NCBI GenBank assembly: GCA_002049455.2
Contig: KV918850.1
Span: 186,001-250,000 of the forward strand
DNA length: 64,000 nucleotides
Origin: Porphyra umbilicalis
Taxonomy: Eukaryota > Rhodophyta > Bangiophyceae > Bangiales > Bangiaceae
Direction: 5' to 3'
Both the position numbers and the translations under genes were made by a program. Every line of letters begins with the position of its first letter. The stretch's first letter is position 1. The notes beneath the pieces were generated by a model. It was given only the letters and a program-made list of their open reading frames with translations, did no database searches and was not told the DNA's origin. Of the stretch, positions 6,018 to 41,716 are shown piece after piece.

Positions 6018-7287
6018 GGGTTGTGCATCACGCCCCTTTTTGGGTGGCGGGGTGGGCGATGCACGCCTACAGTCAATCCTCGATGATGGCCCACCCCTAC
6101 GGCACGAATTGCACCTGCCAGCACTATTGCCACAGCCAGTTTTGAAGGCTACTTAATCAACAATCGTGACCAGAAGCTGCCCTCCTGATGCGATCAATGC
6201 AGGTCGGTCTCTGAAATGGTGCTCAGAGCCTTGCGCGACGTGAGAATGTGCCTTGATCGCCTCTCTGGGGGCGATCGTCGGTCGACTCGTTAAAGGCCCA
6301 CCTGGGCCTATACCGGGTGTGACAAGGTCGGGGATTGACTATAATCACGCCCTTCTGCACGCCCCCAACATTGGCACGCCCCTCTCACGCCCCTAATGTA
6401 GCCCCCATGTTTTGACACTTACTTGATAGGCGATTCAAAGTACCCAATACTCTTGCAATTCGGATGGTTCAAAGGACCACAAAAATGCCAGAAAACATGG
6501 AGGAAACAGCAGCATGCGATACACTCTCTTGGCCTCTGCCACTCTGCCTCAAAGATACTTTGCAGCATCAAGGGACGTCGGCCCGCCTTGCCTCCACCGG
6601 CCGCCCCACCGCCCGCAGTCCCACCCATCTCACCGCGCACAAAGCCAGAGCAGATGGTCATCAAACCATTCTCGGTCATGGCCGCCGGGGCGTCCTTGTC
6701 GCCGGGACGACCAATGTCCTGTCAAGGGACGCCGGCGCCAGCCGTGGCGCATCGGGCGACCTTCTCGTTCAGGAGGCGCGTAGCTCGCCGCCGGCGCCCC
6801 CTCCATTACTGCCGTCGGCCTGGTCGTTGCCGGCGCGCGCTGCATCGCATTCAACGTCCTCATTGGCGCCCGTGTCGAGGAGCCCCTCTGCATCCTCCCA
6901 GGCTGATGACAGCAGGTAGCCGGTGTTGTGCCCATCCCGCACAGATGGCGCCCGCGCATCATGGCGTCGAGCACATTGTTTGTGAGCACACGACGGAAAA
7001 ATGGTCCCCATGCCACATAGCGTCGAGCACCTTGTTTGTGGACGCTAGACGGAGCAGTCAGACACCGCGCCCTGAAAAAGTAACGAAGGTGGCACGGAAC
7101 TGCACCGAAGAATACTTGGGGGACTGGCGCCCCAAGTGCGCATTTGAAATGATGTACTTTTTATGCCAAGCACGCCCCAATCACGCCCCAAAACTTCTGG
7201 GCGTCCAGGGCGTGACACGCCCAAAACACGTGAAATTGCACGCCCCAGGCGTGCAATTTAGCTCGCCCCGGGCGTGTTGCACAACCC
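6018..7287. mobile_element. Non-autonomous TIR DNA transposon (1,270 bp, TA flanks)
   Basis: The left end is GGGTTGTGCATCACGCCC at 6018-6035. The right end, reverse-complemented from 7270-7287, is GGGTTGTGCAACACGCCC, matching at 17 of 18 bases. Both ends are flanked by TA (6016-6017 and 7288-7289), consistent with a TA target-site duplication. CACGCCC/GGGCGTG heptamers are scattered through the subterminal parts (6350-6400 and 7190-7280), as expected for transposase-binding repeats. A perfect hairpin with 12-bp arms and a 3-nt loop lies at 7233-7259. No transposase is encoded, so movement would need a factor in trans. The superfamily is undetermined; TA duplication is used by Tc1/mariner-like elements among others. 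A second left end is at 41,717. Confidence 0.7.
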
Positions 7288-13200: not shown

Positions 13201-16200
13201 TGTTGCACAACCCTACCAGACACACACGGCCATGCACAGTAGTTGCTGTGATCAAGGCCTTTTCAGTCGCTGTCGCAATTGATCTTTCGACAAACATGGA
13301 AACTTTAGGCCGTCAAAGAAGCACCATCCTGCCCTCAGCGGGGCAACGCGTGTGTGTCTGCTTGTCCAGCCCCCTGCACATTGCACCTCGTTGCTGGATC
13401 CACCACGAGCCCCGTTTTCCCCCAAATCGCTCGTACAAAAACTTGCACGACCCCTCGTAAGCACCTGTACGAGGCGTTTTTATTTTTTGCAAAAACATGT
13501 TGAACGCTGCATCGCATTCAACGTCCTCATTGGCGCCCGTGTCGAGGAGCCCCTCTGCATCCTCCCAGGCTGATGACAGCAGGTGGCCGGTGTTGTGCCC
13601 ATCCCGCACAGATGGCGCCCGCGCATCATGGCGTCGAGCACATTGTTTGTGGGCACACGACGGAAAAATGGTCCCCATGCCACATAGCGTCGAGCACCTT
13701 GTTTGTGGACGCTAGACGGAGCAGTCAGACACCGCGCCCTGAAAAAGTAACGAAGGTGGCACGGAACTGCACCGAAGAATACTTGGGGGACTGGCGCCCC
13801 AAGTGCGCATTTGAAATGATGTACTTTTTATGCCAAGCACGCCCCAATCACGCCCCAAAACTTCTGGGCGTCCAGGGCGTGACACGCCCAAAACACGTGA
13901 AATTGCACGCCCCAGGCGTGCAATTTAGCTCGCCCCGGGCGTGTTGCACAACCCTACCAGACACACACGGCCATGCACAGTAGTTGCTGTGATCAAGGCC
14001 TTTTCAGTCGCTGTCGCAATTGATCTTTCGACAAACATGGAAACTTTAGGCCGTCAAAGAAGCACCATCCTGCCCTCAGCGGGGCAACGCGTGTGTGTCT
14101 GCTTGTCCAGCCCCCTGCACATTGCACCTCGTTGCTGGATCCACCACGAGCCCCGTTTTCCCCCAAATCGCTCGTACAAAAACTTGCACGACCCCTCGTA
14201 AGCACCTGTACGAGGCGTTTTTATTTTTTGCAAAAACATGTTGAACGCTGCATCGCATTCAACGTCCTCATTGGCGCCCGTGTCGAGGAGCCCCTCTGCA
14301 TCCTCCCAGGCTGATGACAGCAGGTGGCCGGTGTTGTGCCCATCCCGCACAGATGGCGCCCGCGCATCATGGCGTCGAGCACATTGTTTGTGGGCACACG
14401 ACGGAAAAATGGTCCCCATGCCACATAGCGTCGAGCACCTTGTTTGTGGACGCTAGACGGAGCAGTCAGACACCGCGCCCTGAAAAAGTAACGAAGGTGG
14501 CACGGAACTGCACCGAAGAATACTTGGGGGACTGGCGCCCCAAGTGCGCATTTGAAATGATGTACTTTTTATGCCAAGCACGCCCCAATCACGCCCCAAA
14601 ACTTCTGGGCGTCCAGGGCGTGACACGCCCAAAACACGTGAAATTGCACGCCCCAGGCGTGCAATTTAGCTCGCCCCGGGCGTGTTGCACAACCCTACCA
14701 GACACACACGGCCATGCACAGTAGTTGCTGTGATCAAGGCCTTTTCAGTCGCTGTCGCAATTGATCTTTCGACAAACATGGAAACTTTAGGCCGTCAAAG
14801 AAGCACCATCCTGCCCTCAGCGGGGCAACGCGTGTGTGTCTGCTTGTCCAGCCCCCTGCACATTGCACCTCGTTGCTGGATCCACCACGAGCCCCGTTTT
14901 CCCCCAAATCGCTCGTACAAAAACTTGCACGACCCCTCGTAAGCACCTGTACGAGGCGTTTTTATTTTTTGCAAAAACATGTTGAACGCTGCATCGCATT
15001 CAACGTCCTCATTGGCGCCCGTGTCGAGGAGCCCCTCTGCATCCTCCCAGGCTGATGACAGCAGGTGGCCGGTGTTGTGCCCATCCCGCACAGATGGCGC
15101 CCGCGCATCATGGCGTCGAGCACATTGTTTGTGGGCACACGACGGAAAAATGGTCCCCATGCCACATAGCGTCGAGCACCTTGTTTGTGGACGCTAGACG
15201 GAGCAGTCAGACACCGCGCCCTGAAAAAGTAACGAAGGTGGCACGGAACTGCACCGAAGAATACTTGGGGGACTGGCGCCCCAAGTGCGCATTTGAAATG
15301 ATGTACTTTTTATGCCAAGCACGCCCCAATCACGCCCCAAAACTTCTGGGCGTCCAGGGCGTGACACGCCCAAAACACGTGAAATTGCACGCCCCAGGCG
15401 TGCAATTTAGCTCGCCCCGGGCGTGTTGCACAACCCTACCAGACACACACGGCCATGCACAGTAGTTGCTGTGATCAAGGCCTTTTCAGTCGCTGTCGCA
15501 ATTGATCTTTCGACAAACATGGAAACTTTAGGCCGTCAAAGAAGCACCATCCTGCCCTCAGCGGGGCAACGCGTGTGTGTCTGCTTGTCCAGCCCCCTGC
15601 ACATTGCACCTCGTTGCTGGATCCACCACGAGCCCCGTTTTCCCCCAAATCGCTCGTACAAAAACTTGCACGACCCCTCGTAAGCACCTGTACGAGGCGT
15701 TTTTATTTTTTGCAAAAACATGTTGAACGCTGCATCGCATTCAACGTCCTCATTGGCGCCCGTGTCGAGGAGCCCCTCTGCATCCTCCCAGGCTGATGAC
15801 AGCAGGTGGCCGGTGTTGTGCCCATCCCGCACAGATGGCGCCCGCGCATCATGGCGTCGAGCACATTGTTTGTGGGCACACGACGGAAAAATGGTCCCCA
15901 TGCCACATAGCGTCGAGCACCTTGTTTGTGGACGCTAGACGGAGCAGTCAGACACCGCGCCCTGAAAAAGTAACGAAGGTGGCACGGAACTGCACCGAAG
16001 AATACTTGGGGGACTGGCGCCCCAAGTGCGCATTTGAAATGATGTACTTTTTATGCCAAGCACGCCCCAATCACGCCCCAAAACTTCTGGGCGTCCAGGG
16101 CGTGACACGCCCAAAACACGTGAAATTGCACGCCCCAGGCGTGCAATTTAGCTCGCCCCGGGCGTGTTGCACAACCCTACCAGACACACACGGCCATGCA

Positions 16201-16468
16201 CAGTAGTTGCTGTGATCAAGGCCTTTTCAGTCGCTGTCGCAATTGATCTTTCGACAAACATGGAAACTTTAGGCCGTCAAAGAAGCACCATCCTGCCCTC
16301 AGCGGGGCAACGCGTGTGTGTCTGCTTGTCCAGCCCCCTGCACATTGCACCTCGTTGCTGGATCCACCACGAGCCCCGTTTTCCCCCAAATCGCTCGTAC
16401 AAAAACTTGCACGACCCCTCGTAAGCACCTGTACGAGGCGTTTTTATTTTTTGCAAAAATATGTTGAA
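6838..16468. repeat. 13-copy head-to-tail array of a 741-bp unit (satellite-like)
   Basis: The sequence recurs every 741 bp (for example TGCATCGCATTCAACG at 6841, 7582 and 8323). Unit starts are 6838, 7579, 8320, 9061, 9802, 10543, 11284, 12025, 12764, 13505, 14246, 14987 and 15728, giving exactly 13 units. Unit 8 is 739 bp because of two single-base deletions near 12,448-12,461. Copies are nearly identical. The first has GGTAGCC where others have GGTGGCC. Units 1, 4 and 5 share GTGAGCACAC where the rest have GTGGGCACAC. Each unit holds the right part and right TIR of the 6018-7287 element plus ~290 bp of downstream flank. The small ORFs repeated in each unit (136, 121, 86, 73 aa) lie on both strands, overlap each other and resemble nothing, so I do not call them genes. 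Confidence 0.97.
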
Positions 16469-25984: not shown

Positions 25985-26735
25985 AAGGTCGATTCCACGC
26001 ATTGAGGCGCATGAGCGCGACTCATATTGGCGCGCACAGAACTCGACAATGGAACGAGCGTTGCCGCTCCGCATGGACGAATTTTGGAGCCTACTTCATC
26101 AGCTTTTTTATGACGCACTTTCAGGCGGCTACGACAATAGGCTTGAGAGACAGACGTTTTTCCTCGCATCCCACCGTTGTCTTGAACGCCTTTTTGTGGA
26201 ATAAATAGCCCGCTGATCACGCTGCAGGCGGTAACCCGACGTGGCTAGGCAACAAAATGCGTGTCAGCGGTGCTGCGGGGAAGTCTGGACGACATGTGTG
26301 GCCGTTGGTCAGCATGGGCGGTGGTCGTGGGGGGCAGGTGATGCTCGTAGCCGGTCGAGAGAAACTGCATTTCCATGGGATGCCAGATCGGATAAATACG
26401 TGTCTTGCATCAGATATTGGTCAGAGCCAGTTCTGGATCGGCAAAGACGAAGAAAACGGCGCGATTCTGGAGGGGCAGAGAAACACCGAGGTGTATCTCA
26501 GCGCTACAAGATCCTTTGAGCGCCCAGTCTTTTTTCCTTGAGTACCCTTGCCACGGAGACCAGTGCTGTTTACTTCTCATGGTTATAAAAAGTCTAGAAC
26601 AGCAGAGAAACCCCTTTCCTCATGCGCCTAAATACATTGAATAGACCTTCAGGATTGCTCAGAGCGCCCGGGGCATCGTTGAGGGCGTCGTTAAGGGCGT
26701 CACTAGGGCGTCTTTTGGGCGTCGTGCGCCCCTAA
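25985..26735. other. Intergenic DNA between the MITE and the large Harbinger element
   Basis: The region is AT-richer than its surroundings, with no open frame above ~95 codons and no recognisable motif. The last ~70 bp (26,665-26,735) holds repeated GGGCGTC motifs. Weakly similar sequence lies outside the opposite end of the large element (41,507-41,550). Confidence 0.6.
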
Positions 26736-26762
26736 GAGCATTCCCAACAAAGTCGGGCCAAC
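26736..26762 (+). repeat. Left terminal inverted repeat of the Harbinger element
   Basis: It begins GAGCATTCCCAACA and ends GTCGGGCCAAC, preceded by TAA at 26,733-26,735. Against the right TIR it differs at two positions (12th and 16th). Confidence 0.8.
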
Positions 26763-26915
26763 CCCATATTGGGCACACGTTGCAGAAACGTGTCTCAAAT
26801 TCGCCGTTGGCCAGTTCTCGGGGCGGGTAACAATGTCGAACGTGCACGCGGCGTTGCCAACGGAGGTCAAGCGAGTTGAAACGCGAATGTACTTGCGCCC
26901 GATTCGGGGTCGGAG

Positions 26916-26986
26916 CCGTTGGCCCCAGGGCCAACGAGTTGCCAACGGAGCCTCCGTTGGCAACTCGTTGGCCCTGGGGCCAACGG
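26916..26986. repeat. Perfect 34-bp-arm hairpin in the Harbinger left subterminal region
   Basis: The arm at 26,916-26,949 (starting CCGTTGGCCCCAGG) is the exact reverse complement of 26,953-26,986, with a 3-nt spacer GCC. Each arm holds a smaller palindrome, CGTTGGCCC-CA-GGGCCAACG, and a TTGCCAACG site, so the structure is a nested palindrome built from the same motif that recurs at both element ends. It could extrude as a cruciform and probably presents clustered sites for the element's DNA-binding protein (inference). Confidence 0.95.
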
Positions 26987-27589
26987 GTTCTGTGCTCTGA
27001 TTGGTCCATCGCGGTTTCACGGGGTTAAATGAGTGACAAGTGGCAGTTCATATTGTCCTCAGATTGCCCAATTTATCATATTTTTGTTTCGACAGCCACC
27101 CACGGATGGAATATTGTACCTCTCGGAATTGGACGGCCGCATGCCATCTCGACCCCAGAGCCCGGATCGTTGAAGTGTGTCACGTATCTCTCGTGCGGTG
27201 GCGTGTGGCCGAACGCGCTTGCGGGCCTGTCGGACACGCGGCGCGATCGCACCGACACTGGTAAAACAACTGGATCGGAGCGCTCGTGCGGGCACACGAG
27301 GCGGGGCCGGGCCACAGTCCCGCGCCCGGTCGCCAAATGGCCGCACCTGCGGCCACGTAGTGAACTGAGCAGAACCCTCCACCCCTGACAGCACCCCAGG
27401 GCACCCCTGACAACCGCCACACCCCCACAGCAACCCACAGCCCACACAACACAGACGCCTGGGCGGCCAGAAATACCGCCCTCTCTACCACCCACCACCG
27501 CGTCCCGCGCGCGCGCGTACTGCCCCCCCACCACGCCACCCGCGCACACCGGCACCCCCGCCGCCGCCCCCACGTCGCCGCCGCCCCCG

Positions 27590-30500
27590 CCGACCGTTGC
27601 CGCCACCCACGCCACCGCCAACGACCGCCGCAGCCACCCACGCTACCGTCCCCGTCGTCGCCGTCCGCCCCCCCGCCCCCGCCGATCGCCGCCGCCCCCC
27701 GCACCGGCCGCTGTCGACGCCGCCCCCGCCGACCGTTGCCGCAACCCGCGCCCACGCCACCGACCACGACCGCCGCTCGCCCCCCCCGCCCCCGCCCATC
27801 GCCGCCGCCCCCGCCAACCGTTGCCACCACCACCGCCGCTACCGCCGACCGTCGTTGCCGCTCGCCCCCCCCGCCCCCGCCCATCGCCGCCGCCCCCGCG
27901 AACCGTTGCCGCCACCAGCGCCGCCACCGCCGACCGTCGTCGCGGCCCGCCTTCCCCCCCCCGCCCATCGCCGCCGCCCCCGCCCCCGCCAACCGTTGCC
28001 GCCACCACCGCCGCCACCGCCGACCGTCGTCGCCGCTTGCCCCCCCCGCCCCCGCCCATCGCCGCCGCCCCCGCCCACCGTTGCCGCCACCAGCGCCGCC
28101 ACCGCCGACCGTCGTCACGGCCCGCCTTCCCCCCCCTCGCCCATCGCCGCCGCCCCCGTCCCCGCCAACCGTTGCCGCCACCACCGCCGCCACCGCCGAC
28201 CGTCGTCGCCGCTTGCCCCCCCCGCCCCCGCCCATCGCCGCCGCCCCCGCCCACCGTTGCCGCCACCAGCGCTGCCACCGCCGACCGTCGTCGCGGCCCG
28301 CCTTCCCCGCCCCCGCCCATCGCCGCCGCCCCCGCCCCCGCCAACCGTTGCCGCCACCAGCACCGCCACCGCCGACCGTCGTCGCATCTCGCCCCCGCCG
28401 CCCCCGCCCATCGCCGCCGCCCCCGCCAACCATTGCCGCCACCAGCGCCGCCACCGCCGACCTTCGTCGCGGCCCGCCTTCCCCGCCCCCGCCCATCGCC
28501 GCCGCCCCCGCCCCCGCCAACCGTTGCCGCCACCAGCGCCGCCACCGCCGACCGTCGTCGCATCTCGCCCCCGCCGCCCCCGCCCATCGCCGCCGCCCCC
28601 GCCAAACGTTGCCGCCACCAGCGCCGCCACCGCCGACCGTCGCCGCGGCCCGCCTTCCCCCCCCTCGCCCATCGCCGCCGCCCCCGCCACCGCCAACCGT
28701 TGCCGCCACCAGCGCCGCCACCGCCGACCTTCGTCGCGGCCCGCCTTCCCCGCCCCCGCCCATCGCCGCCGCCCCCGCCCCCGCCAACCGTTGCCGCCAC
28801 CAGCGCCGCCACCGCCGACCGTCGTCGCATCTCGCCCCCGCCGCCCCCGCCCATCGCCGCCGCCCCCGCCAAACGTTGCCGCCACCAGCGCCGCCACCGC
28901 CGACCGTCGCCGCGGCCCGCCTTCCCCCCCCTCGCCCATCGCCGCCGCCCCCGCCACCGCCAACCGTTGCCGCCACCAGCGCCGCCACCGCCGACCTTCG
29001 TCGCGGCCCGCCTTCCCCGCCCCCGCCCATCGCCGCCGCCCCCGCCCCCGCCAACCGTTGCCGCCACCAGCGCCGCCACCGCCGACCGTCGTCGCATCTC
29101 GCCCCCGCCGCCCCCGCCCATCGCCGCCGCCCCCGCCAACCGTTGCCGCCACCAGCGCCGCCACCGCCGACCGTCGTCGCGGCCCGCCTTCCCCCCCCTC
29201 GCCCATCGCCGCCGCCCCCGCCACCGCCAACCGTTGCCGCCACCACCGCCGCCACCGCCGACCGTCGTCGCCTCTCGCCCCCCCCGCCCCCGCCCATCGC
29301 CGCCGCCCAAGCTTACCGTTGCCGCCGCCCGCGCCGCCACAGCCGACCATCGTCGCCGCTCGCCCCCTCTGCCCCCTCCCATCGCCGCCGCCCCCGCTGA
29401 CCGTTGCCGCCGCCCGCGCGGCCACCACCGACCGTCGTCGTGGCTCGCCCCCGCCGCCCCCGCCCATCGCCGCCGCCCAAGCCGACCGTTGCCGCCGCCC
29501 GCGCCGCCACCACCGACCGTCGTTGCCGCTTGCTTCTCCCGCCCCGGCCGATTGCCGCTGCCCAAGCCGACCGTGGCCGTAGCCCGCGCCGCCAACACCG
29601 TCCGTCGTTGCCGCTTGCCCCCCCCGTCCCCGCCCATCGCCGCCGCCCCCGCCAACGGTTGCCGCCGCCCGCGCGGCCACCACCGACCGTCGTCGTGGCT
29701 CGCCCCCGCCGCCCCCGCCCATCGCCGCCGCCCAAGCCGACCGTTGCCGCCGCCCGCGCCGCCACGACCGACCGTCGTTGCCGCTTGCCTCTCCCGCCCC
29801 CACCAATTGCCGCCGCCCAAGCCGACCGTTGCCGCCGCCCGCGCCGCCACCACCGACCGTCGTTGCCGCTTGCTTCTTCCGCCCCGGCCGATTGCCGCTG
29901 CCCAAGCCGACCGTGGCCGTAGCCCGCGCCGCCACCACCGTCCGTCGTTGCCGCTCGCCCCCCCGCCCCCGCCCATCGCCGCCGCCCCCGCCAACCGTTG
30001 CCGCCGCCCGCGCGGCCACCACCGACCGTCATCGTGGCTCGCCCCCGCCGCCCCCGCCCATCGCCGCCGCCCAAGCCGACCGTTGCCGCCGCCCGCGCCG
30101 CCACCACGGACCGTCGTTGCCGCTTGCCTCTCCCGCCCCCACCAATTGCCGCCGCCCCCGCCGACCGTTGCCGCCGCCCGCGCCGCCACCACCGACCGTC
30201 GTTGCCGCTTGCTTCTCCCGCCCCGGCCGATTGCCGCTGCCCAAGCCGACCGTGGCCGTAGCCCGCGCCGCCACCACCGTCCGTCGTTGCCGCTCGCCCC
30301 CCCCGCCCCGCCCATCGCCGCCGCCCCCGCCAACCGTTGCCGCCGCCCGCGCGGCCACCACCAACCGTCGTCGTGGCTCGCCCCCGCCGCCCCCGCCCAT
30401 CGCCGCCGCCCAAGCCGACCGTTGCCGCCGCCCGCGCCGCCACCACCGACCGTCGTTGCCGCTTGCTTCTCCCGCCCCGGCCGATTGCCGCTGCCCAAGC

Positions 30501-31290
30501 CGACCGTGGCCGTAGCCCGCGCCGCCACCACCGTCCATCGTTGCCGCTCGCCCCCCCCGCCCCCGCCCATCGCCGCTGTTCTCGCCAACCGTTGCCACCT
30601 GCGCCTCCGTCCCCGTCGTCGCCGTGCACCTCCCCGGCGCCACCGACCGCCGCCGCCGCCACCACCCGCCGGAATCACCGTCCCCGCGGCCGACGGCGGC
30701 CCTCGCCGCCCGCCGTCGCGTCACCGACCCCCGTCCCCGCCATCGCCGTGTGGCCCGCGACGACGCCGGTCGCTACCGGCAATCTGTGCCCCCATCCTCG
30801 TCACCGCCCCCGCCGGCCACCGCCAACGTCGACCGTCACCCCCGCCAACACCGCCAACACCTTTTTCGCCCCGTACAACACCGCCAACGCCGTCCCCGTC
30901 CCCGCCGAACACCGCCAACGACGTCGGTCGCCCCCGCCAACGTCCCGACGCGCGGCACCGCCCCCGCCGACGTCTGCCAACGCCGACCGTTACCGCTGCC
31001 GACACCGCCAACGCCGTCCCCGCCCCCCCACCCGGTGCACTCGCTGCTGACGCCGGGGAAGCCGTCGGCTCTCTCCGCCGCCGCCGCTGCCGACCGACGC
31101 CCCCATCCCTGCCGCCGCCGCCAACCAAGAAAACCGCCGCCGCCAAGCAGAGCCGCCGTGCAAGTCGGCGCTGCCGCCGACCAAGGCCGCATCGCCCGCC
31201 GGCTCCGCCGCCGACTAACGCCCGCATCCCTGCCGGCGGCGGCGCCGCCCGCCGTGCCCGGCCCCGATCCCACTGACCAGAAGCGTCGTC
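27590..31290. repeat. GC-rich higher-order minisatellite inside the Harbinger element
   Basis: A basic unit of ~85-89 bp (core CGCCCATCGCCGCCGCCC, AACCGTTGCCGCCACC, GCCGACCGTCGTCG) repeats throughout, with higher-order periodicity. The marker CCTTCGTCGC recurs at 28,461, 28,728 and 28,995 (267 bp = 3 x 89). ATTGCCGCTGCCC recurs at 29,551, 29,891, 30,230 and 30,484 (340, 339 and 254 bp, about 4, 4 and 3 units of 85). Several frames on both strands stay open for 500-1,150 codons, because the unit lacks stop triplets in most frames. The hypothetical products are Pro/Ala/Arg- or Gly-rich. I treat it as a repeat and not a gene. From ~30,600 the periodicity decays. Confidence 0.9.
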
Positions 31291-31541
31291 AAGGACGGGG
31301 GCCCGGTTCACATCGCTGATAACCGACTTGTGCGTTTCCCGTTCAATCGTTTTCGACAATGCGTTGCACTTGTGTGTGCGGTGTACCGGGTGTTGTGCGG
31401 GGGAGTACGCCAGCGAGTGTGGTTTCGACGTGGGATGCAGTATCTGACATGAAGTGCCGTGTCACCGCGATTCTGTGCTTCCTGTGGCATTGTTGGTCGG
31501 TGCGTTCCCCTGCAATCCTGATTTCTTTGTTGATGCAGACC

Positions 31542-33404
31542 ATGAACGTCCACGACGAGGAGCACGGCGACGACATGAGGGGTGCTGTGGACCAGGACGA
31601 CCTCTCCTCGGGCCTCGCGATGGCTGTGAGCCACCATCTTCGGCTGCTGCAGTTGGCGCGGCGGGTCCGCGGTTGTCAGCGCTTGCGGCGACGGCACCGC
31701 GGGTCGGTTCGTGGGCGCGCGCCCAACAAGAAGCGCGACTTCAACCTCGGGCTGCGCAACATTTTGCGCGACTACTGGGGTGTGGAAGGGGAGCCGCCCG
31801 TCTTCGACGAGGCGGACTTTGAGAGCCGGTTCCGAATGCCACGCGCTGTCTTCATGCGCGTCTACAATGACATAAAGGACGAGCCGTTTTTCCGCCAACG
31901 CGTCAACGCCACCGGGCGACCCCAGGCGCATTCGCTTCAGAAGGTCGTCGCCGCGCTGCGCGTTCTTGGCAACGGCGAGGCCGCGGACCGCCCCGATGAG
32001 TACGTCCGGTTGTCGAAGTCGACCACCAATGCCGCCGTCAAGAGCTTCATCGAGTTCATCGTCAACAAGTACGAGTCGACCTACATGCCCGCGCCGACGA
32101 ACGAGGACATCACGCGCATCCTGGCGTTCAACAAGGACCGGGGCTTGCCCGGCTGTATCGGCAGCTTGGACTGCAGCCACTGGGAGTGGCACGGCTGCCC
32201 GAAGTCGGCGGCGGGACAGCACAAGGGCAGGTCGGGCAAGCGGTCCATTGTCCTGGAGACGGTGTGCGACCACGACCTCTGGGTTTGGCAAGTCTTTGCC
32301 GGCTCGCCAGGAAGCAGCAACGACATCAACGTCCTCAAGCAGAGCCCTTTGTTTTCTCGTGTCGTGCGCGGCGAGTGGCCGCCACGTGACTTTTCTTTTG
32401 AAGTGAACGGGCGGAGGTACACGTATCTTTACTATTTAGTCGACGGTAGTTATCCCTCTTACCCCTTTCTAGTTCGCCCCCACCAGAACCTCGGCACCCC
32501 GGAGGAGCTTGAGTTCAACGCCGTACAAGAAGGCGCTCGCAAGGAGGTCGAGCGCCTGTACGGCACCATGTACCAGCAATTCAAGGTGGCTCTCCACCCC
32601 GCGCGCCACCACAGCGTGGCGCACCTCATCCTCACGGCCAAGGCCGTGTGCATCTTGCACAACATGGTCGTGGAGGCGCGGCGGCCATCATTCGTCCACA
32701 ACATTCGGCGGCATGGCGCAGATGTCGACATTGCTGGTCACGGTGGCGGCCTTGCGGGCGACGGTGAGGGCGCGGGCGCCTGTGCCGCCAATGGCGGCGA
32801 CGGCAGTGACGTCGGCGGCGGTGAAGATGGTGGGGATAGTGGCGCCGGCGGCGGTGGCGGCGGCGGGGATGGTGGCGCAGGCGGCGGTGACGGCGGCGGC
32901 GGCGGCGGCGGTGGCGGCGGTGGCGGAGGTGGCGGCGGTGGCGGCAGTGGCGGCGGTGGCGGGCACGGCGGGGGTGGCCCCGCAGCCGTGGGCGGTGGTG
33001 ACGCTGGCGGCGCTGGCGGCGGGGATGGTGGCGACGGCGGTGAGGATGCTGGGGAGGGTGGCGCCGGCGGCGCTGGCGGCAGCGATGGTGGTGGTGCCGG
33101 CGGCGGCGGTTGGGATGGTGGCGACGGCCACGGGGGCGCTCGGGGTCGTGGCGCCGGCGACATTGGTGGCCGAGGTCGTCCGTCTGGGCCATCACGCGGA
33201 CGTGTTGGTCGGGCCGCTGACGGTGTCCCAGCTGACCCTGCGCTCCAAGTTAACCAGGGCATGCTTCCTCCCCCCGGTTCCTTCTCCGACCTCCTTACTT
33301 GGGTGCAGGCGACGGACCCGGCCGTCGGTATGTACTTGAGAAAGGATCTCACTGCACTTGCGTGGGCTCGCCGACAGGCACGGCGGTCACGCGCTGGCGA
33401 GTAA
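31542..33404 (+). CDS. PIF/Harbinger transposase with long Gly-rich C-terminal extension
   Basis: The frame is open from 31,359. I start at the ATG at 31,542 (ACCATGAAC), just after TTCTTTGTTGATGCAG, which resembles a 3' splice site and suggests a spliced leader. The 620-aa product has a basic N-terminus and a helical part (FRMPRAVFMRVYNDI; SLQKVVAALRVLGNGEAAD), then the DDE core. D210 is in GCIGSLDCSHWEW, D301 in YLVDGSYPSYPFLV, and E337 in ARKEVERLYGTMYQQFKV. This is the plant-transposon (Plant_tran / DDE_Tnp_4) variant, and the triad is complete. Residues ~410-560 are an unusual Gly/Asp tract, followed by a short ordered tail (GSFSDLLTWVQATDPAVGMYL). It lies 570 bp from the convergent Myb-like partner gene within the same TIRs. 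It should excise and insert the element with 3-bp duplications. Confidence 0.92.
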   Translation: MNVHDEEHGDDMRGAVDQDDLSSGLAMAVSHHLRLLQLARRVRGCQRLRRRHRGSVRGRAPNKKRDFNLGLRNILRDYWGVEGEPPVFDEADFESRFRMPRAVFMRVYNDIKDEPFFRQRVNATGRPQAHSLQKVVAALRVLGNGEAADRPDEYVRLSKSTTNAAVKSFIEFIVNKYESTYMPAPTNEDITRILAFNKDRGLPGCIGSLDCSHWEWHGCPKSAAGQHKGRSGKRSIVLETVCDHDLWVWQVFAGSPGSSNDINVLKQSPLFSRVVRGEWPPRDFSFEVNGRRYTYLYYLVDGSYPSYPFLVRPHQNLGTPEELEFNAVQEGARKEVERLYGTMYQQFKVALHPARHHSVAHLILTAKAVCILHNMVVEARRPSFVHNIRRHGADVDIAGHGGGLAGDGEGAGACAANGGDGSDVGGGEDGGDSGAGGGGGGGDGGAGGGDGGGGGGGGGGGGGGGGGGSGGGGGHGGGGPAAVGGGDAGGAGGGDGGDGGEDAGEGGAGGAGGSDGGGAGGGGWDGGDGHGGARGRGAGDIGGRGRPSGPSRGRVGRAADGVPADPALQVNQGMLPPPGSFSDLLTWVQATDPAVGMYLRKDLTALAWARRQARRSRAGE

Positions 33405-33973
33405 TGAGGGCTCGTATGTGCCTGTGGGTGTGTGTGCATGTGTGTGTGTGTTTGTTTGTCAATGACTTGTTCTTTCGTCAAAGCCGCATGGCATGTTCTG
33501 TGTACCAATCGAAGTCCCCATGTCGGAGTCACGACTAGCGGCTCATGCGAATGCTGGCGGCCTGCGCCCTCGCATCGCGTATGACAGGCAAGGTGTTTAG
33601 CACCTACAATGCGCAACTGATGCGCTTTCCATCTCATAGGGCGTTGCCAAGACAGACTTTACCCGTGCTTGACTCACGTGCGGAACGCGCCCGGCCATGA
33701 TGAACAGCAGTGCGTCGCAACTGATGGCGCATACTGCAAGAAAACACACAACAAAGCTAACAAAAGGAGCACCGCTTGCAACGCGCTAGCTCCAACACAG
33801 GCATGCGACTGCACGCGACCACACCAAACAAGGACAATGTGGGTGACCTGCAATGTCTCCCATCCGTCACACATGCACGTCCGCCGCACTAGAGTCACAG
33901 GCACACAGCAACGTCCTGCGGCATGCGTCTCACAATCACTCCAGCGGTCAAACCCTCCGCACCCCAAAGGTCC
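33405..33973. other. Spacer between convergent Harbinger genes
   Basis: It contains a TGTGTGTG/TTTGTTTGT stretch just after the transposase stop (33,425-33,460) and otherwise unremarkable sequence. It presumably holds both 3' UTRs; no further gene is seen. Confidence 0.55.
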
Positions 33974-36397
33974 TCACTCGTCCTCTTCATCATCAGTGAC
34001 CTCCTTGTTCACAGCACCGCCGGTTCGCGCAGACACAGCGCCCGTCATCCGGACCGTACGTCCCGCGCCGCGACTGCGCATGTCGCCACGCGCGGTAGGC
34101 GCCGTAACGCTGCTCCCGCCTCGCACGTCCAGCCCAGTGAGGTCAATGGCGGCCTGGTTCTTGTCGATGCGCGCCTGCCCCACCTTGGACTTGGCCGCCA
34201 TCGCGTGGCGGCCGCGCGCCAGGCGCACGCGCTCTGCAGAGCCTCTCTTTTCCAGCCCCGACGCCTCGGCCACATTGGTGGTCGCGTCGCTGTCGTCGCT
34301 TGATGCGACGACCGGCTCCTTGCCGCCCCCCGCGGCCATCGCGGCCGACGCGGCCGCAGCTGCGCTCGCGCCCGCTGCAGTGGCCGACTTGGTCGATTGC
34401 GACGCGCCCCGCACCGCGACCGCACCGCTGGCCACGGCCGCCGGCGCCGTGGCATTGATGGCCGCCATGCCGATGTTGAACATGTCCTTCCGCATGGCCT
34501 CAAAGAACGTCTTGGCCTCGTCCGTGCCCTTGTTCTCGGCCAAGTTTAAGAACGCGGCCGCCGCGCGCTTGGACTCGAGCTGCGTCCGCTTGGAAGCCTC
34601 CGAAACCATCGCCTCCATCGTCTTTCTCGAGCGCACGAGCTCCACACCGAGGACGCCCGCGCTCTCTTGCATGTCCTCTTTGTTGTTGCGCATGCGCTTG
34701 GCCGCCTTGACGCCCATGGCCGGTCGCGGCTGGAGAGCGGGACGCTTCCCGCGTGAGGGCTTGTCGCCGCCGCCGTTGCCATCATCGCCGCCGTCAACGT
34801 CCAGCTGACCACCAATGCCGTGAAAGCGGTCGGCGACGGCGTTGGCGTCGGCCGCCGCCCCGCTGAACTTGTCCATCTTTCTCAGCACGCGCCACATCGG
34901 GATGCACGCGCACGTCACCACGTGACCGGTCCGCTCCGCCCACGCCTTTCCCTGCCGCTCGCTCTCGTCGTCCGAGCACGCGTCCTGCCGCACGGCTTGG
35001 TACGCCGACACGCCAGAGAAGAGGCCCGCGGCGGCGCGCACGAGGTCCTCCTCAGTCAGCCCCCCCTTCAGCTGCTTCTTGTCGGACACCACCTTGAAGA
35101 AATGTGCGAAGCGCTGCACGTCGGGCGCGATCTTGCGCTCAAACTGCGTCTGCATGGAGCCCGCCGTGCGCTCGCTTCATCGGCCCTTCAGGTCACTGGG
35201 CTTCAGGCTCTTGGGCATGCGCTGCACAAAGTCCTCCTTGATGGTGTCCCAGAGACCGTCCTTCGACCAGTCCGCGCCCATGTCCGACCGCTGCGCCACC
35301 AACTTGAACGCCTCACAGAGAGCCACCTGCTCGTCGACCGTCCACACCTTTCCCTTGCCGTTGCCTGGGCCCTTCTTCTTGGCGCCTGCGCCACCCCCGC
35401 GGCGAGGACCGCCGCTCGCGCGGCGCCCTTGGTGCTGCGGCGTCGGCGCACCGCCGGTGCTGGATGATGCGACGCTCCTGCCCGAAGACTGGTTCCACTC
35501 GCTCTCGTCACCGCCGCCAGCCCCACCAAGGTTCGACATTGTTGGTCGCGGCATCGCTCCCCGTCGGGTGCCGGCTGCTCGCTTCTCACGAGCACGGGTA
35601 CGTCCCGACTTGTCCGACTCTGTGTCGCTTGGTGGACCGCGGCCGACCGGTGCGCTCTTGCCGGGCGCCCCGCCAGCACCGGCGCCAGCCTGTGACCCAC
35701 TTGCGCTTCCGCGGGCAACCGGCGTGGCGGCCACCAATGTCGGCGCCACGGGGCCCGCTCCACCGGCGGAGCGCTCGTCCGAGGTAGCACGAAGGGCGCC
35801 AGAAGCAGCGGCTCCTCGAGGCTTGTACGGCACACAGCGGTCAGACAAGATGGGAGGGTTGGGCGGAGGAGTCTTGCCAGAAGCGAGCGCGTCTTTCACA
35901 CGACACGCGTGCAAGCGCCGGACGAACTCCTCGACACCGAGGTTGCTGGCGCGCCGCAGGCCCGCCAGGTGCGGGCGCCGATCAGTCCGCGCCTTCTTCG
36001 AAGGGGTTGGAGCCGCCTCGTCGACCCCAATAACGTCGCCGCCACCCAGAGCGGCGCCGGACTTGGCCGGCGCTACCGCGTCCACACCGGTGGTCGCTGC
36101 CGACGCAGGCAGCGACGCGCAACCGCCGGCAGCCGTGGTCGTCCCGCCCGTCCGGGACGTCGCCGCTGCAGTGTCGGCACCTGCTGTCGCGGACGGCAGC
36201 CGCAGTGCCGCTCGCACCGCGGGAGGCGCCGCCCCGCCCGTGCCACGGGCCGTAGCAGGCTCGAGCCCAGGGGGGGGAGAAGACTTGTCCAACGGGTTGC
36301 GCACCCGCTGGTAGCGAAATCCAGGAGGTAGAGGGGGGAGTGGGGGAAACGGCGGGGCGTCGCCATCGGCCGACTTTGAAGGGGGGGAGTCGGGCAT
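33974..36397 (-). pseudogene. Harbinger Myb/SANT-like DNA-binding partner with NAM-associated C-terminus, one in-frame TGA
   Basis: This is the second protein of Harbinger elements, which recruits the transposase to subterminal DNA sites. From the ATG at 36,395-36,397 (MPDSPPSKSADGD) a ~345-aa Pro/Ala/Ser-rich disordered part leads to a trihelix/Myb-type domain (KVWTVDEQVALCEAFKLVAQ, DGLWDTIKEDFVQRM). A TGA at 35,177-35,179 then interrupts the frame. The same frame continues past it with QFERKIAPDVQRFAHFF, TEEDLVRAAAGLF and CIPMWRVLRKMDKF, the rest of the domain, and the NAM-associated part with RPAMGVKAAKRMR and a coiled helix (FFEAMRKDMFNIGM), ending at 33,974. The TGA falls within the conserved fold, so I read it as a nonsense mutation. 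Readthrough, a small intron or a base error are alternatives. It converges with the transposase gene. Confidence 0.8.
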
Positions 36398-37036
36398 GGC
36401 GGCTTGCTGTGTCGCGACACGTACGGCACAGCGACAGCAGTGGACACACCGTCCGTCGACGGCGAAAAAGGGCGGATGCACCGCCGTTGTGGAACGGGCC
36501 ACAGAGAGCGGGCACGTTCAACGTACACCTTCACCCGTGCGGTCCCCGCAAGCATACAGCCAAAAGCACAGGACCTAAGTCGACTGACATTGTTGGTTGC
36601 CCCCATGCTACCTGCCAACGACGACTGCGGCACCGCCCCCAATGGCCCTCCCAGGCGCACTCAGAACGGTGCGACCGGGCCACAAAAGTGTGCCGGACCC
36701 CACAAACGGCGTTCGTGGACTGCCTGATCGGATGTCCCGAGAGGCTCACACGAGCCGTCCGTTGACAGGCCCGATGCCCCACGAGACTAGAGGTGGCGCC
36801 GTTGCCGAGGAAAGATTGCAGAAAATTCAATTCCCGTTGCTTTCCCGCAACTGCGTTTCGGCGTTTCCTCGGCCAGCCGAGGCTGAGGCACACGCCACCA
36901 CTCACGACACCAGCCGCGACCATCTGGAGTCACCCGCGCACCGAGGAGGTGCTTTCGGGCAACTCATCACGCCCGCCGCCGACCACCCCCATGAGGATGG
37001 CTGCTTTCGTCCGCATCCCCGTGTGATGCCGTGCTT

Positions 37037-37080
37037 CACCCCCCCCCCCGTCCCCCCCCCCCCCCCCCCCGACCATTTGC
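37037..37080. repeat. C-rich homopolymer tract in the hAT 3' region
   Basis: C runs of about 9 and 19 separated by GTC lie between the hAT left end and its gene. No gene is seen between 36,800 and 37,680. Confidence 0.7.
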
Positions 37081-37680
37081 CCGCGCGGTTTGGACCTTGA
37101 TAGGGGTTCCTTTCGACTGCATTGGCACGGCTGTCGTCCAGTGGTACGGCTCCACCGACCCCACCTGTCCACCGCTCTGCAGCATCGTTGTGTCCGCATC
37201 AATGCAAGTCTTTTTGCGTATTCAGGGGCTACTGTATGCCACCCGCATTGCTGTTTGTGCTTCGTTTGTTGACGTTGCTGCTTTGTACGCACCCTGTTTG
37301 TCCCCCTTTCTTTCGTTTCTTGTGCAGGTCACGACACCCGCATCAGCGCATCAACCACCTCCACGGGACGCCATTCTACACTGCCTCATGCTCGAGAGGA
37401 GCGGGAGCTTGAGGGGGGTGAGTGGTGGGACGAGCAGGACTTGCGTGGAGTAAAGGCCTTTGTTTTGACCCTGCCGAGTTGCAAAGGGCAATCACAAGAG
37501 GAGACGCGGAGCATCGCAGGCAATCGCGGTGGCGGCGGCCTCGTTCGTGGGGACAGCGAGGGGGGGGGGAGGGGGGGGGGGGGCGGCAAGTTGGGGAGGC
37601 GGCTGAGCGGCAGCGGCTGTGCGGACCACGTTGGGCCGACGGCAACGACAACCCCTACATGCGGCACCTCGCACAACGCT

Positions 37681-37880
37681 AAGATGGGGAGGGCGAGGCG
37701 CCGTTATGCCCACTGTCTGTGCGGGACGATGGTGACGGTGTGCAGCGGTGGTGGTGGGCGTGGTTATGTCCACTGTCTGCGCGGGGCAATGGTCACGGCG
37801 TGCGGCGGTGGTGGTAGGCGTGGTTATGACCACTGTCTGCGCGGGGCAATGGTCACGGCGTGCGGCGGTGGTGGTGGCGG
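37681..37880. repeat. 60-bp minisatellite, about 3.3 copies
   Basis: Units start at 37,681, 37,741 and 37,801, with a partial fourth at 37,861. The shared core is GTTATGxCCACTGTCTGYGC. Units 2 and 3 are almost identical. Because 60 is a multiple of three, a plus-strand frame reads a 20-aa repeat (HCLRGAMVTACGGGG), but I see no independent support that it is translated. Confidence 0.9.
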
Positions 37881-37987
37881 CGACAAAGGCGGTACCCATC
37901 CGCTTGTTGGGCAGCGCCCAGTAGCATCAGATAAAAAACTCATTCCACTTTATTGTGATACAACCAAGCCATTTCTACTTTACTCGT

Positions 37988-40060
37988 CTAGCTCAACAAA
38001 AAGTCTACCGCAGCGTCTACGCCCGCCGTTCCCAACAAATGGTCAACAGTGGCGTCATCTGACGGATGACCGCCACCAGTGTCACCGCCCTCGTTATTTG
38101 ACACGTCGTCGCCAGACGACCCTCCCCCATCGCCGTCCGAATCCGGCTCCGCCGCGGCGGGGGGAGCGGCCGCCGGCGCGCCCGCCCCCGTCTCCCCGGC
38201 GAGCAGCGCCCGCAACTCAAACTCAACCGTGGGGCGGCGAAACGCCGCCAGCACGTCTGCGCGTTCCAGCTGCCGCGTGTTGAACCGTATTCGGGTTTGG
38301 TTGTCGACGCGCTCCGGGGCGAGGCGGCTACGGCGCGTGAAGAGCACAGTCTTTAACGCCTTGAAGATGCGCTCGCCCCCCGCCGCAGAAGGGGGGATGG
38401 CAAGTAGGCGCACAGCCAGCGGCTGCGAAGTGGGGAAGCGCCATCCCCAAAGGCGCCACCACATCACGGGGTGTAAATCGCGGGATTGCTCCAAGGCAGC
38501 AGGGCCTTGCTCCGTGTCTGCAAAGCTTGCCAACTCGGCGAGGACTAAAGCCCTTGCAGCATTGTCGGGTCGGCATAGGAAGACCACGGCCGCATCGCGT
38601 AAGGTTGCGAGCGACTTGGTGCCCCAAAGGAGGCACGACAGCCGCGTCCGCACCGGGGCCCAAAAAGGGTCCAGCCAAAACGCGAGGGCTACCAGTGGGT
38701 CTGAAAACGACGTGTAGCGACGCTCGATTGAAGACTGCATCGCCTGCCGCGCTGCCACAGATAGGCCCGTGAAATGATTGGCCAGCGATGCACGGAGGCA
38801 CGCAAAAATAGCCACGTAGGACGACAGGGGGGTGGCGTCACCTTCCATGTGGGCCACCAGACGAGCCAGAAATAGAAGGAACGGCACGCACCCATCAATC
38901 GCCGACCGGACCGCGGGGGACCGGATGGCGTCGGTCACGGGCGTCGGCACGTCAAACGGCGAAGGGGAATGGGTGTTCTCGAGCAGAGTATGGTCCAAAG
39001 CCGGAAGATTTGACCCAACGGCTGCAATGGTGGCCCCCTCCCCCGCCCATCGTGTGCGGGAGTAGGTCTTAAGGGACCCCACGCGTCGACCCGCGGCCGG
39101 CAGGCGCGCCCGCACGGCCCGCAGGAGCGCGTGTGCGCGCGTCGATCGCGTAAAAAACACAGTGATCAACAGCGCTGCACGCAACGCCTGAGCGCAAATG
39201 GGCACCCGTGCGGCGTCTTGCGCCACGAGGTTGGCGGCGTGAGCCCCACACCCAAAAGCAAACAGGAACGAGCCGCTGGCGACAGCCATACCCCGCAAGG
39301 CCACCATCGTCGTTGGCGAGTCCGTTACGAGTGCAAGGACCCGACGGTGACCGAACAAGGAGAGGACCGACGCCCCGGCCGCCAACTCAGTGGTGGCCGA
39401 CGTGGCGAAGCTACACAAGAGGGGGGCTTGAAGGGCTTCTTGCAGGCGGGTCAAGAGATTGGCCGCCGTGCTGGGTTCCGATCCCATGCGAAACGTAGCC
39501 ACCAAAAAGGGGCGCGGGGTGTAGATGACGACGTTGTAGACCCCACCCCCGCTCGCGTCAGTCATCCCGTCAATGGAGAGGGACACAGAGTGGCACCCCT
39601 CTAAGAAGCGCGCCAGGCTGCTGTCCACGGCCGCAACCGCTGACGTTAGCAGCGCCCCGCCAACGGCGCGGCGACCCCCCGGTCCATCAAACCGGCCGCC
39701 CGAAATCAGCAAAAAAACCGAGCGCCACGCCGCGGTGTCAAAGAGGCCAAAAGGCAGGCCCGCTTGAAGCAAGACTGCAGCAAAATTGGTCCTCCACATG
39801 GCCAACACATTGGCAGGAATGGGGGGGAGCGCCCCACCCAGCGCTTCGGCAACCGGCCCCGCCGCATGCGGCCGGTCGGCATCCGCCAGGCGCTGGGCGA
39901 GGTCGGGGTAGAGCGCCAACGCCCCCGTGCAGGTGCGGAGGTGTCGGCGGGCCCGCGTTGCGTTGCGCCGCACGTTCTTGTAGGTGCAATGGCGGGCCTG
40001 GCAGGACATGCGCTGGCCACAGGGATGCAAGGTGATGAAGCGCCACACCAACGATGCCAT
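37988..40060 (-). CDS. hAT-family transposase (BED-like finger, DUF659, hATC)
   Basis: This 690-aa intact ORF runs from the ATG at 40,058-40,060 (CCCATGGCA). Residues ~14-44 hold a Cys/His cluster (C20, C25, H40, C44) resembling a BED-type finger that binds transposon ends. The DUF659/RNase-H core follows, with SLSIDGMTD (D164), LALVTDSPTTMVALRG (D247) and FAFGCGAHAANLVAQD. The insertion-domain region precedes the C-terminal dimerisation motif WWRLWGWRF...LLAIPPSAAGGERIFKALK (~534-570), with the conserved Glu at 564. The tail is acidic (SDGDGGGSSGDD). Length and order match autonomous hAT transposases. It lies within matching TIRs and an 8-bp duplication, so it is very probably the enzyme of that element and could be active. 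Confidence 0.93.
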   Translation of the reverse strand: MASLVWRFITLHPCGQRMSCQARHCTYKNVRRNATRARRHLRTCTGALALYPDLAQRLADADRPHAAGPVAEALGGALPPIPANVLAMWRTNFAAVLLQAGLPFGLFDTAAWRSVFLLISGGRFDGPGGRRAVGGALLTSAVAAVDSSLARFLEGCHSVSLSIDGMTDASGGGVYNVVIYTPRPFLVATFRMGSEPSTAANLLTRLQEALQAPLLCSFATSATTELAAGASVLSLFGHRRVLALVTDSPTTMVALRGMAVASGSFLFAFGCGAHAANLVAQDAARVPICAQALRAALLITVFFTRSTRAHALLRAVRARLPAAGRRVGSLKTYSRTRWAGEGATIAAVGSNLPALDHTLLENTHSPSPFDVPTPVTDAIRSPAVRSAIDGCVPFLLFLARLVAHMEGDATPLSSYVAIFACLRASLANHFTGLSVAARQAMQSSIERRYTSFSDPLVALAFWLDPFWAPVRTRLSCLLWGTKSLATLRDAAVVFLCRPDNAARALVLAELASFADTEQGPAALEQSRDLHPVMWWRLWGWRFPTSQPLAVRLLAIPPSAAGGERIFKALKTVLFTRRSRLAPERVDNQTRIRFNTRQLERADVLAAFRRPTVEFELRALLAGETGAGAPAAAPPAAAEPDSDGDGGGSSGDDVSNNEGGDTGGGHPSDDATVDHLLGTAGVDAAVDFLLS

Positions 40061-40587
40061 GGGCTGGGGGGGGATGGGGGGGCATCGGGAGGGGGAGCGG
40101 GGAGAAGAGCGGGGGGTGCAGGCAGCGGTGGAGGCGGCATGGGGGCCAAGTGGGGGGTAAGCAGGTGCTGTGCGGTGGAGGAAGCCAGGACAATGATGGT
40201 CACGTCAACGACAGCGAGCTGAGGAGAGTATGCGCTTGTCCCCCGAGGCGGCCAAGGCGAGTCAGCTTGCGCCCAGCGGACCCTGTCGCCGGGGTGCCCT
40301 CGTCGGTCCTCAGCGCGCCCTGCGCGCAGTGCAAAGCAGCCGCTTTGCAGCTGCTCCCTGTGGACAGCCTTCGGCGTCTGTGTGGCTAGGATGCGCCATG
40401 CACAGCCACAAAGCAGCGCCACAGACAGAGGGACGGTTGTCAGTGACACACGTTTCAATGTCTCGAGAGGAAACGGTGACGAAACGGAAATTACCGAAAC
40501 GAGGGTAGAACACCCCCTGTGGGTGGTAACGGAAATTTCCTTGAAATTTCCATACGTGTCTGGAAATCTGCCATCTCTACACGAGAC

Positions 40588-41476
40588 CCGTGACCCAGAG
40601 GGAGGCTGACGGTCGGTTTCCTCGACAGGCGTGCACCGTACCTCTCGATCTCGGCGCCGGACACCTGGGGGCCCGCCGTCAGCCATCACGCACTCGCGAG
40701 TGAGTGGACGGTCGCACTGAGATATTGTTCACGAGGCTGTCAAGGACACCGCCCCGAAAGCCCTGGCACTTGTCCCCACGTCCCGGGGGACACACCACGG
40801 ACGCTCAGGTGGACACACACGAGTGCCAATGAGACCGCCAGCGCGATCCATTTCTCAATTCTGGCCCGTCCTCGGCCCTCTGGAGGCACCCAAGGCGCCA
40901 CAGGAAGAGTGACTGCGCGGTGCAATCGGTCTGACTCAGCAGATGGGGGCAGGCACGCAGCAGAGGTGCACAGGGGCGCAGCCCTTGTGCCACGCGCATG
41001 GCTCTCGAGCCACCCGTTTGCGCGGTTTGTCAGGCCACTGTGGCCGCTGGCGACAGTTCGACCGCCATGATTCAGGCTCCAACACCTTCCACAGCCTGGG
41101 GCGGTGCGACCGCAACACACGTCACGCACTCGAGCGGATTTGATCCACATTGGTACCGAAAGGCTTCCACGTGTCTCGCTAGATTGCCTTGATTTGGGCG
41201 GTTTGGGCTCCGTTCACACGCTTTCCGTGACATGTTCGGCACGTATTCGACGGACGCCTCTTCATTTCGATACTGGCGACGACGCTGATACGTGTCCTCC
41301 GTTGGCAACCACGAAGTGCGGCCAACAACGTCGAGGCCAACGGCGCTCAGATCTTCGAAAGGTAGCCCACTCTGTAATGTTCACCCATTACATTGCCCGT
41401 TGGCAACGCGTTGGCCCGTTGGCAACTGACCACTCGCAGGGCCACACGTAGCGGTATCATTTCACCGTTTCAGACC
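40588..41476. other. Right internal arm of the Harbinger element
   Basis: No gene is supported; the longest frames (~140 codons) overlap on both strands without motifs. From ~41,290 the GTTGGC/GCCAAC subterminal motifs appear and increase towards the TIR. Confidence 0.6.
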
Positions 41477-41503
41477 GTTGGCCCGACATTGGTGGGAATG
41501 CTC
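41477..41503 (-). repeat. Right terminal inverted repeat of the Harbinger element
   Basis: On the plus strand it starts GTTGGCCCGAC and ends TGGGAATGCTC, followed by TAA at 41,504-41,506. Subterminal GTTGGC/GCCAAC motifs lie at ~41,291, 41,313, 41,331, 41,396 and 41,411. Confidence 0.8.
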
Positions 41504-41716
41504 TAACGTCCCCACTCAAAAGAGCGTCAGCAAGGCGTCGCGACGAGAAAGTTGTTAGGGGTGTCTACATAATTCAGCAGGTGGCGACTGTGCACCTTGG
41601 TTGGGGACAGGCACCCAGTCTTGACAAAAACATAACATATGAGAGCATAGTATGGGTGCCACTTGACCCATTAAAGAGGGCGCAAGCGCAACGAACAGCC
41701 TCGGCAAATATGCGAA

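Follow-up and report, generated by a model that had tools for sequence, protein, structure and literature searches.

According to the excerpts of the published work on which we draw here, transposition systems of the PIF/Harbinger type such as rice Ping/Pong require both of their proteins (PMC2836001), and the Myb-like protein of zebrafish Harbinger3_DR binds a subterminal motif of 9 bp (PMC9710019). Candidate autonomous PIF/Harbinger elements have a mean length of ~4.1 kb, and the related ISL2EU, Pangu and NuwaI groups are defined by AT, ANT or CWG duplications, with a YqaJ partner in ISL2EU (PMC4482050). In Medicago, PIF/Harbinger elements reach up to 25.3 kb when nested insertions are counted, and one subfamily contains a 60-bp unit repeated 2-35 times in tandem, attributed to abortive gap repair (PMC2213677). 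Here we analyse an element of this kind in a 64,000-nucleotide stretch of the genome of Porphyra umbilicalis (assembly GCA_002049455.2, contig KV918850.1, positions 186,001 to 250,000 of the forward strand), hereafter the window, with positions numbered from its first base.

The window contains a genuine two-gene PIF/Harbinger transposon at positions 26,736-41,503, with a total length of 14,768 bp (Table 1). Its 27-bp terminal inverted repeats pair at 25 of 27 positions, and the element is flanked by TAA on either side: the left end reads TAA followed by GAGCATTCCCAACAAAGTCGGGCCAAC, with 26,736 as the first base, and the right end reads GTTGGCCCGACATTGGTGGGAATGCTC followed by TAA, with 41,503 as the last base. 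The repeats, the TAA flanks and the exact coordinates are those given by an earlier sequence-only reading of this DNA, which had also placed a DDE transposase, a Myb/NAM-type partner and a nested hAT transposon within the interval; all three were borne out by Pfam matches, homology with sister families and an 8-bp duplication. The transposase frame matches two Pfam families above the cut-off, PF04827 (Plant_tran, E = 9.6e-56) and PF13359 (DDE_Tnp_4, E = 1.1e-11), both of which we take to be markers of PIF/Harbinger, and its acidic residues D283, D374 and E410 presumably constitute the DDE triad. The ATG at 31,542 is the likely start of the transposase, and solved structures searched with its sequence gave no match at E <= 1. 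The second gene is identified by homology with sister families, its Myb/SANT label being our assumption based on residue patterns, and is broken in the window copy. The 3-bp TWA duplication is seen in the TAA/TAA flanks within the window, in the flanks of other copies and in the single TAA of the target sequence. With such a duplication, the ISL2EU, Pangu and NuwaI groups of PHIS were ruled out. Overall, the element is a well-bounded representative of a type of transposon whose anatomy has already been published. Judging from its sequence and by analogy with described systems, we consider it about 90% probable that this is a cut-and-paste copy of a multiplied PIF/Harbinger family, the ends of which would be recognised through the partner protein, and that the window copy would be mobile only in trans.

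To place the element among its relatives we searched the genome (83.8 Mb in 665 contigs; the window itself has 64.6% GC). The left 825 bp of the element were found at a minimum of 33 places, the window included, with matches that start at base 1 or 2 and reach base 822 or further, and the right 904 bp at a minimum of 25 places, again including the window, from base 1 to 903 or 904; both counts are lower bounds, because 40 of 167 first-look candidates were scored for the left end and 40 of 144 for the right. We read 30 left and 30 right loci together with their flanks, leaving out two of the right loci, one in which the match is 25 bp short (L054) and one in which the end is split by a ~400-bp insert (L058). 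All 30 left ends start at the identical base and the 28 right ends stop at the identical base, with a TWA triplet (TAA or TTA) next to 26 and 20 of them, respectively. Among the 12 copies with paired ends on one contig (copies with unclear partner ends, e.g. on C39, C107 and C84, were omitted), 10 display an identical triplet on both sides, TWA in nine cases and GCA in one, and two mismatch by a single base (TAA/TTA on C16, TAA/TGA on C149). The GCA pair (L010/L047 on C35) is apparently a non-canonical duplication. Searching for copies that share these ends in other flanks was the check proposed by the sequence-only reading, and it came out as that reading had anticipated: the flanking triplets are mostly TWA and the similarity stops at the same bases. 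Family copies agree at 98-99% identity in their unique parts. Three other complete copies (8,743, 9,659 and 9,493 bp) were fetched; they have differing left flanks, identical ends, and the same content and order as the window element without its hAT. The element is thus one copy of a family that, by its sequence, appears to have multiplied and been active recently.

A 397-aa transposase query yielded at least 105 rows among the 104 of 809 candidates scored; 27 rows have 76-100% identity (family A, to which the window element belongs, one copy being split over two rows) and 78 have 54-58% identity (related families). Ten full-length family-A copies, including the one in the window, are stop-free across the tested 397 aa. 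Four copies (on C28, C14, C368 and C39) have no stop in either tested gene piece, that on C14 having a frame change further upstream within the partner gene. Copies open in both tested gene pieces exist, and the window copy is not among them. We also noted two loci, L061 (C43) and L062 (C28), with identical right 1,500-bp flanks and differing left flanks; across a 4.3-kb comparison their elements show 1.4% divergence, with identity confined to the final ~207 bp, a pattern that reflects either an ectopic exchange among copies or chimerism in the assembly. At another locus (L026, C39:271,746-272,568), the left end abuts the right end of a related element with a single TTA between them, which is an insertion at the sister element's own duplication. 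Among viral contigs, eight pattern matches were obtained, none of which was related by tblastn.

The flanks of the element, joined through one TAA, find at least 39 further matches that span the joint, with 89-91% identity (41 rows, from which we subtracted the right half of the window itself and a second row limited to the right half; 40 of 416 candidates were scored). In the two alignments inspected, the joint is gapless, with a single TAA and the sequence CCCCTAACG. These uninterrupted matches are related empty sites, that is, other loci rather than this locus in another strain, and they show that the element landed by TAA duplication inside a dispersed ~250-bp repeat. The same observations bear on the notion that the left and right ends come from separate elements, put 14.8 kb apart by chance or rearrangement. 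The region is indeed repeat-rich and hosts a nested transposon; however, three complete copies with other left flanks have the same ends, content and order, and the matching TAA triplets together with the uninterrupted target copies point the same way, making unrelated ends extremely improbable. Chance pairing in particular is refuted by the dozens of copies and the uninterrupted target repeats.

A separate question is whether the window copy could still move on its own. The sequence-only reading had described it as near-complete with both genes; both are present, but the partner has a nonsense codon, a TGA, within its Myb-like domain. The TGA presumably falls between the second and third helices of the Myb/SANT domain, if we assume the usual domain anatomy, and the start of the partner was set at the first Met of the frame, as inferred from sequence. 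Because the frame is broken within this domain, the window copy is probably not self-sufficient and would depend on other copies. Alternatively, the TGA might be spliced out or read through, with both proteins being made. The partner frame is open on either side of the TGA and DNA alone cannot settle introns, both of which would be compatible with such a scenario. Against it, 15 of the 23 full-length family copies (at least 80% identity) of a 320-aa partner piece around the TGA are stop-free, and the other eight, including the window copy, have one stop each (four TGA, three TAG and one TAA), which looks like scattered decay, the positions of the eight stops having been compared for part of the set. 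In addition, the TGA falls in a stretch common to the sister families. We therefore regard retained self-sufficiency as unlikely and dependence on other copies as the better account of the window copy.

The size of the element invites a different kind of doubt. It had been called unusually large, which holds against the reported mean of ~4.1 kb but not against published PIF/Harbinger elements of up to 25.3 kb, as far as the excerpts of the two sources extend (PMC4482050, PMC2213677). The excess had been ascribed mainly to a 3.7-kb minisatellite. The array itself is confirmed, with a core of ~2.9 kb, the larger figure including degenerate flanks; it does not, however, account for the length, since ~8.1 kb remain when the hAT and the array are subtracted and the family C element described below measures 8,615 bp without a large array. 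Comparable lengths are thus seen beyond the window copy. The array takes up ~1.4, 2.1 and 1.9 kb in the three fetched copies, in the order given above, and it is probably a by-product, varying in length between copies through slippage or interrupted gap repair, rather than a required part. One could instead suppose that the array is a working part, for instance a protein-binding array or a segment that lengthens the transposase at its N terminus. All four copies examined have an array in this position, and transposase frames extend into it in the three copies from outside the window. Yet the array contains 0-3 stops in each of its six frames, and with every frame open or nearly open, an open frame in this stretch is hardly informative; the transposase frame of the window begins downstream of the array; the 85-bp unit is no multiple of three, and the length changes from ~1.4 to 2.9 kb between copies. 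Only one of the 13 CCGTTGGC sites discussed below lies in the array (at 29,651), family C lacks a large array, and in the single copy of family B that was read the arrays lie at other positions. On this evidence a working minisatellite is quite unlikely, and we favour the by-product explanation.

The mechanism that we propose for the family centres on short words beside the ends. The window contains 13 sites of the octamer CCGTTGGC (or GCCAACGG), of which 11 lie within 260 bp of the element ends and none outside the element, the remaining two being in the minisatellite and in the hAT. Its clustering at the ends is exceptional (binomial ~2e-20), although this value is inflated by the near-perfect palindrome that makes up part of the left cluster (26,916-26,986; opposite-strand self-match, query bases 181-251). 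With the outer 24 bp excluded, CCGTTGGC also ranks first in enrichment among the 8-mers in the 300-bp ends (10 versus 2 elsewhere, corrected 1.4e-20). The hexamer CCGTTG fits the Myb site CNGTTR. By analogy with rice Ping/Pong and zebrafish Harbinger3_DR, the Myb/SANT domain of the partner would bind the CCGTTGGC cluster at each end and recruit the DDE transposase to the terminal inverted repeats, whereupon the transposase would excise the element and insert it at TWA. Since its own partner is truncated inside the Myb-like domain, the window copy could by now be mobilised only with this protein provided by another copy.

In support of the partner assignment, the partners of sister families B and C (read from L065/L070 and L066/L071) exceed the PF14303 NAM-associated cut-off (28.9 and 29.4 versus 27.7 bits), and the A, B and C partners align over a tryptophan-bearing Myb/SANT-type stretch as well as a NAM-associated stretch. 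Several results weigh against this account of the element. Both pieces of the window partner lack a Pfam match at E <= 0.1, two other family-A partners reach 10.5 and 12.2 bits for the NAM-associated family, below the cut-off, and none of the partners scanned matched a Myb or trihelix Pfam family. The total number of CCGTTGGC sites in the window is unexceptional (13 versus 7.3 expected from shuffles, sd 3.0; 5 of 100 shuffles reach 13). Finally, motif columns vary somewhat less than others among family-A copies (12/1,440 versus 140/9,057 on the left, 26/1,120 versus 241/8,653 on the right), but not significantly, with 44 of 349 circular shifts on the left and 120 of 349 on the right at or below the observed value.

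Comparison with related families, one element of each having been read, suggests that the end words change between lineages. The family C element spans 8,615 bp, with ends pairing at 23/24 positions and TTA on both sides. The family B element spans 9,621 bp, with ends pairing at 20/20 positions and TGA on both sides; these ends emerged when a single stretch was searched under relaxed criteria, stricter ones having yielded no ends, and they are less secure than the ends of C. The arrays of the B element are located within and close to the partner gene as well as in the 3′ part of the transposase gene and past its end. The transposases of B and C are 65-70% identical to each other and 57-59% identical to those of A. 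All three families have the same two genes and differ in the short words beside the ends: AATGGGG in C (5 versus 7 elsewhere, corrected 9.5e-6) and, more weakly, CTCCCCA in B (4 versus 8, corrected 9e-4). In the two 300-bp ends of A, B and C, CCGTTGG occurs 11, 0 and 0 times, TTGGGG 0, 8 and 2 times, and ATGGGG 1, 5 and 9 times. The step in end words from A to B and C is clear, and the words of B and C, which have the core CCCCA in common, grade into each other. It is conceivable, at somewhat less than even odds, that Harbinger lineages in this genome have private end codes, the related families having replaced the short word beside their ends. The end words would then change in step with the fast-changing Myb partner, presumably, and partner and ends would co-evolve as lock and key, with lineages not mobilising one another. 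A gene-less relative (L064, C24:173,299-177,715) fits mobilisation in trans: it has 4,417 bp between its ends and TTA on both sides, lacks the transposase, and retains 577 bp of the left end (88%) and 513 bp of the right end (95%). Its interior is found at seven places, itself included, and it also has a ~228-bp stretch that recurs widely. The element is ordinary as a transposon; what deserves attention is the end words, which differ from family to family, and their comparison would make co-change of Myb partner and DNA site, as well as cross-family mobilisation, testable with natural variants.

The nested hAT has the 8-bp duplication CACGAGAC on both sides and a transposase with the hAT dimerisation domain (PF05699, E = 2e-8). 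The segment 36,788-40,579 is absent from the three other family copies, and longer hAT copies, in pieces at 88-98% identity, are present on C113, C336 (from base 702), C435 and C86. Elsewhere in the window, a satellite with a 741-bp period occupies ~6,853-16,454 (~9.6 kb), with ~91% identity one period apart. No RNA families were detected in the window at the gathering threshold.

Table 1. Features of the Porphyra umbilicalis element and its surroundings (window positions)
Feature	Position	Strand	Remarks
Left part of dispersed ~250-bp target repeat	26,651-26,735	+	right part 41,504-41,671; matches across joint
Left target-site duplication TAA	26,733-26,735		single TAA in uninterrupted target-repeat copies
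Left terminal inverted repeat, 27 bp	26,736-26,762	+	start common to 33 places including window
Left subterminal cluster, 6 CCGTTGGC/GCCAACGG sites	26,804-26,986
Minisatellite, 85-bp period, 33.6 units, 81% GC	27,690-30,596
PIF/Harbinger DDE transposase frame, 693 aa	31,323-33,404	+	Pfam PF04827, PF13359
Myb/SANT and NAM-associated-type partner gene, interrupted	33,974-36,397	-	convergent with transposase; sister-family homology
In-frame TGA in Myb-like domain of partner	35,177-35,179	-
Left 8-bp duplication CACGAGAC of hAT	36,780-36,787
Nested hAT transposon, 3,792 bp	36,788-40,579	-	absent from three other copies; further copies elsewhere
hAT transposase frame, 738 aa	37,988-40,204	-	PF05699 Dimer_Tnp_hAT, E = 2e-8
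Right 8-bp duplication CACGAGAC of hAT	40,580-40,587
Right subterminal cluster, 5 CCGTTGGC/GCCAACGG sites	41,299-41,482
Right terminal inverted repeat, 27 bp	41,477-41,503	-	genome matches to right end
Right target-site duplication TAA	41,504-41,506		single TAA in uninterrupted target-repeat copies

Among described systems, and as far as the excerpts of the respective reports go, the element is most akin to the PIF/Harbinger group of PHIS, with which it shares TWA, short inverted repeats starting with G, and a DDE transposase accompanied by a Myb/SANT partner, but it is about twice as long as the mean candidate (~4.1 kb; PMC4482050). Medicago MtPH-A6-4 is alike in its variable-number tandem repeat, nested insertions, large size and related empty sites (PMC2213677), whereas the repeat of the Porphyra element has an 85-bp GC-rich unit and is located only between the left end and the transposase. 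Zebrafish Harbinger3_DR similarly combines a Myb-like partner with a short subterminal end motif (PMC9710019, PMC2836001); this likeness is one of description, since binding was established experimentally there and the motif reported here is a sequence pattern alone. Harbinger families of Tisochrysis lutea, likewise compared by description, also reside in an algal genome, where some are expressed or newly inserted (PMC5963040, PMC10138859).

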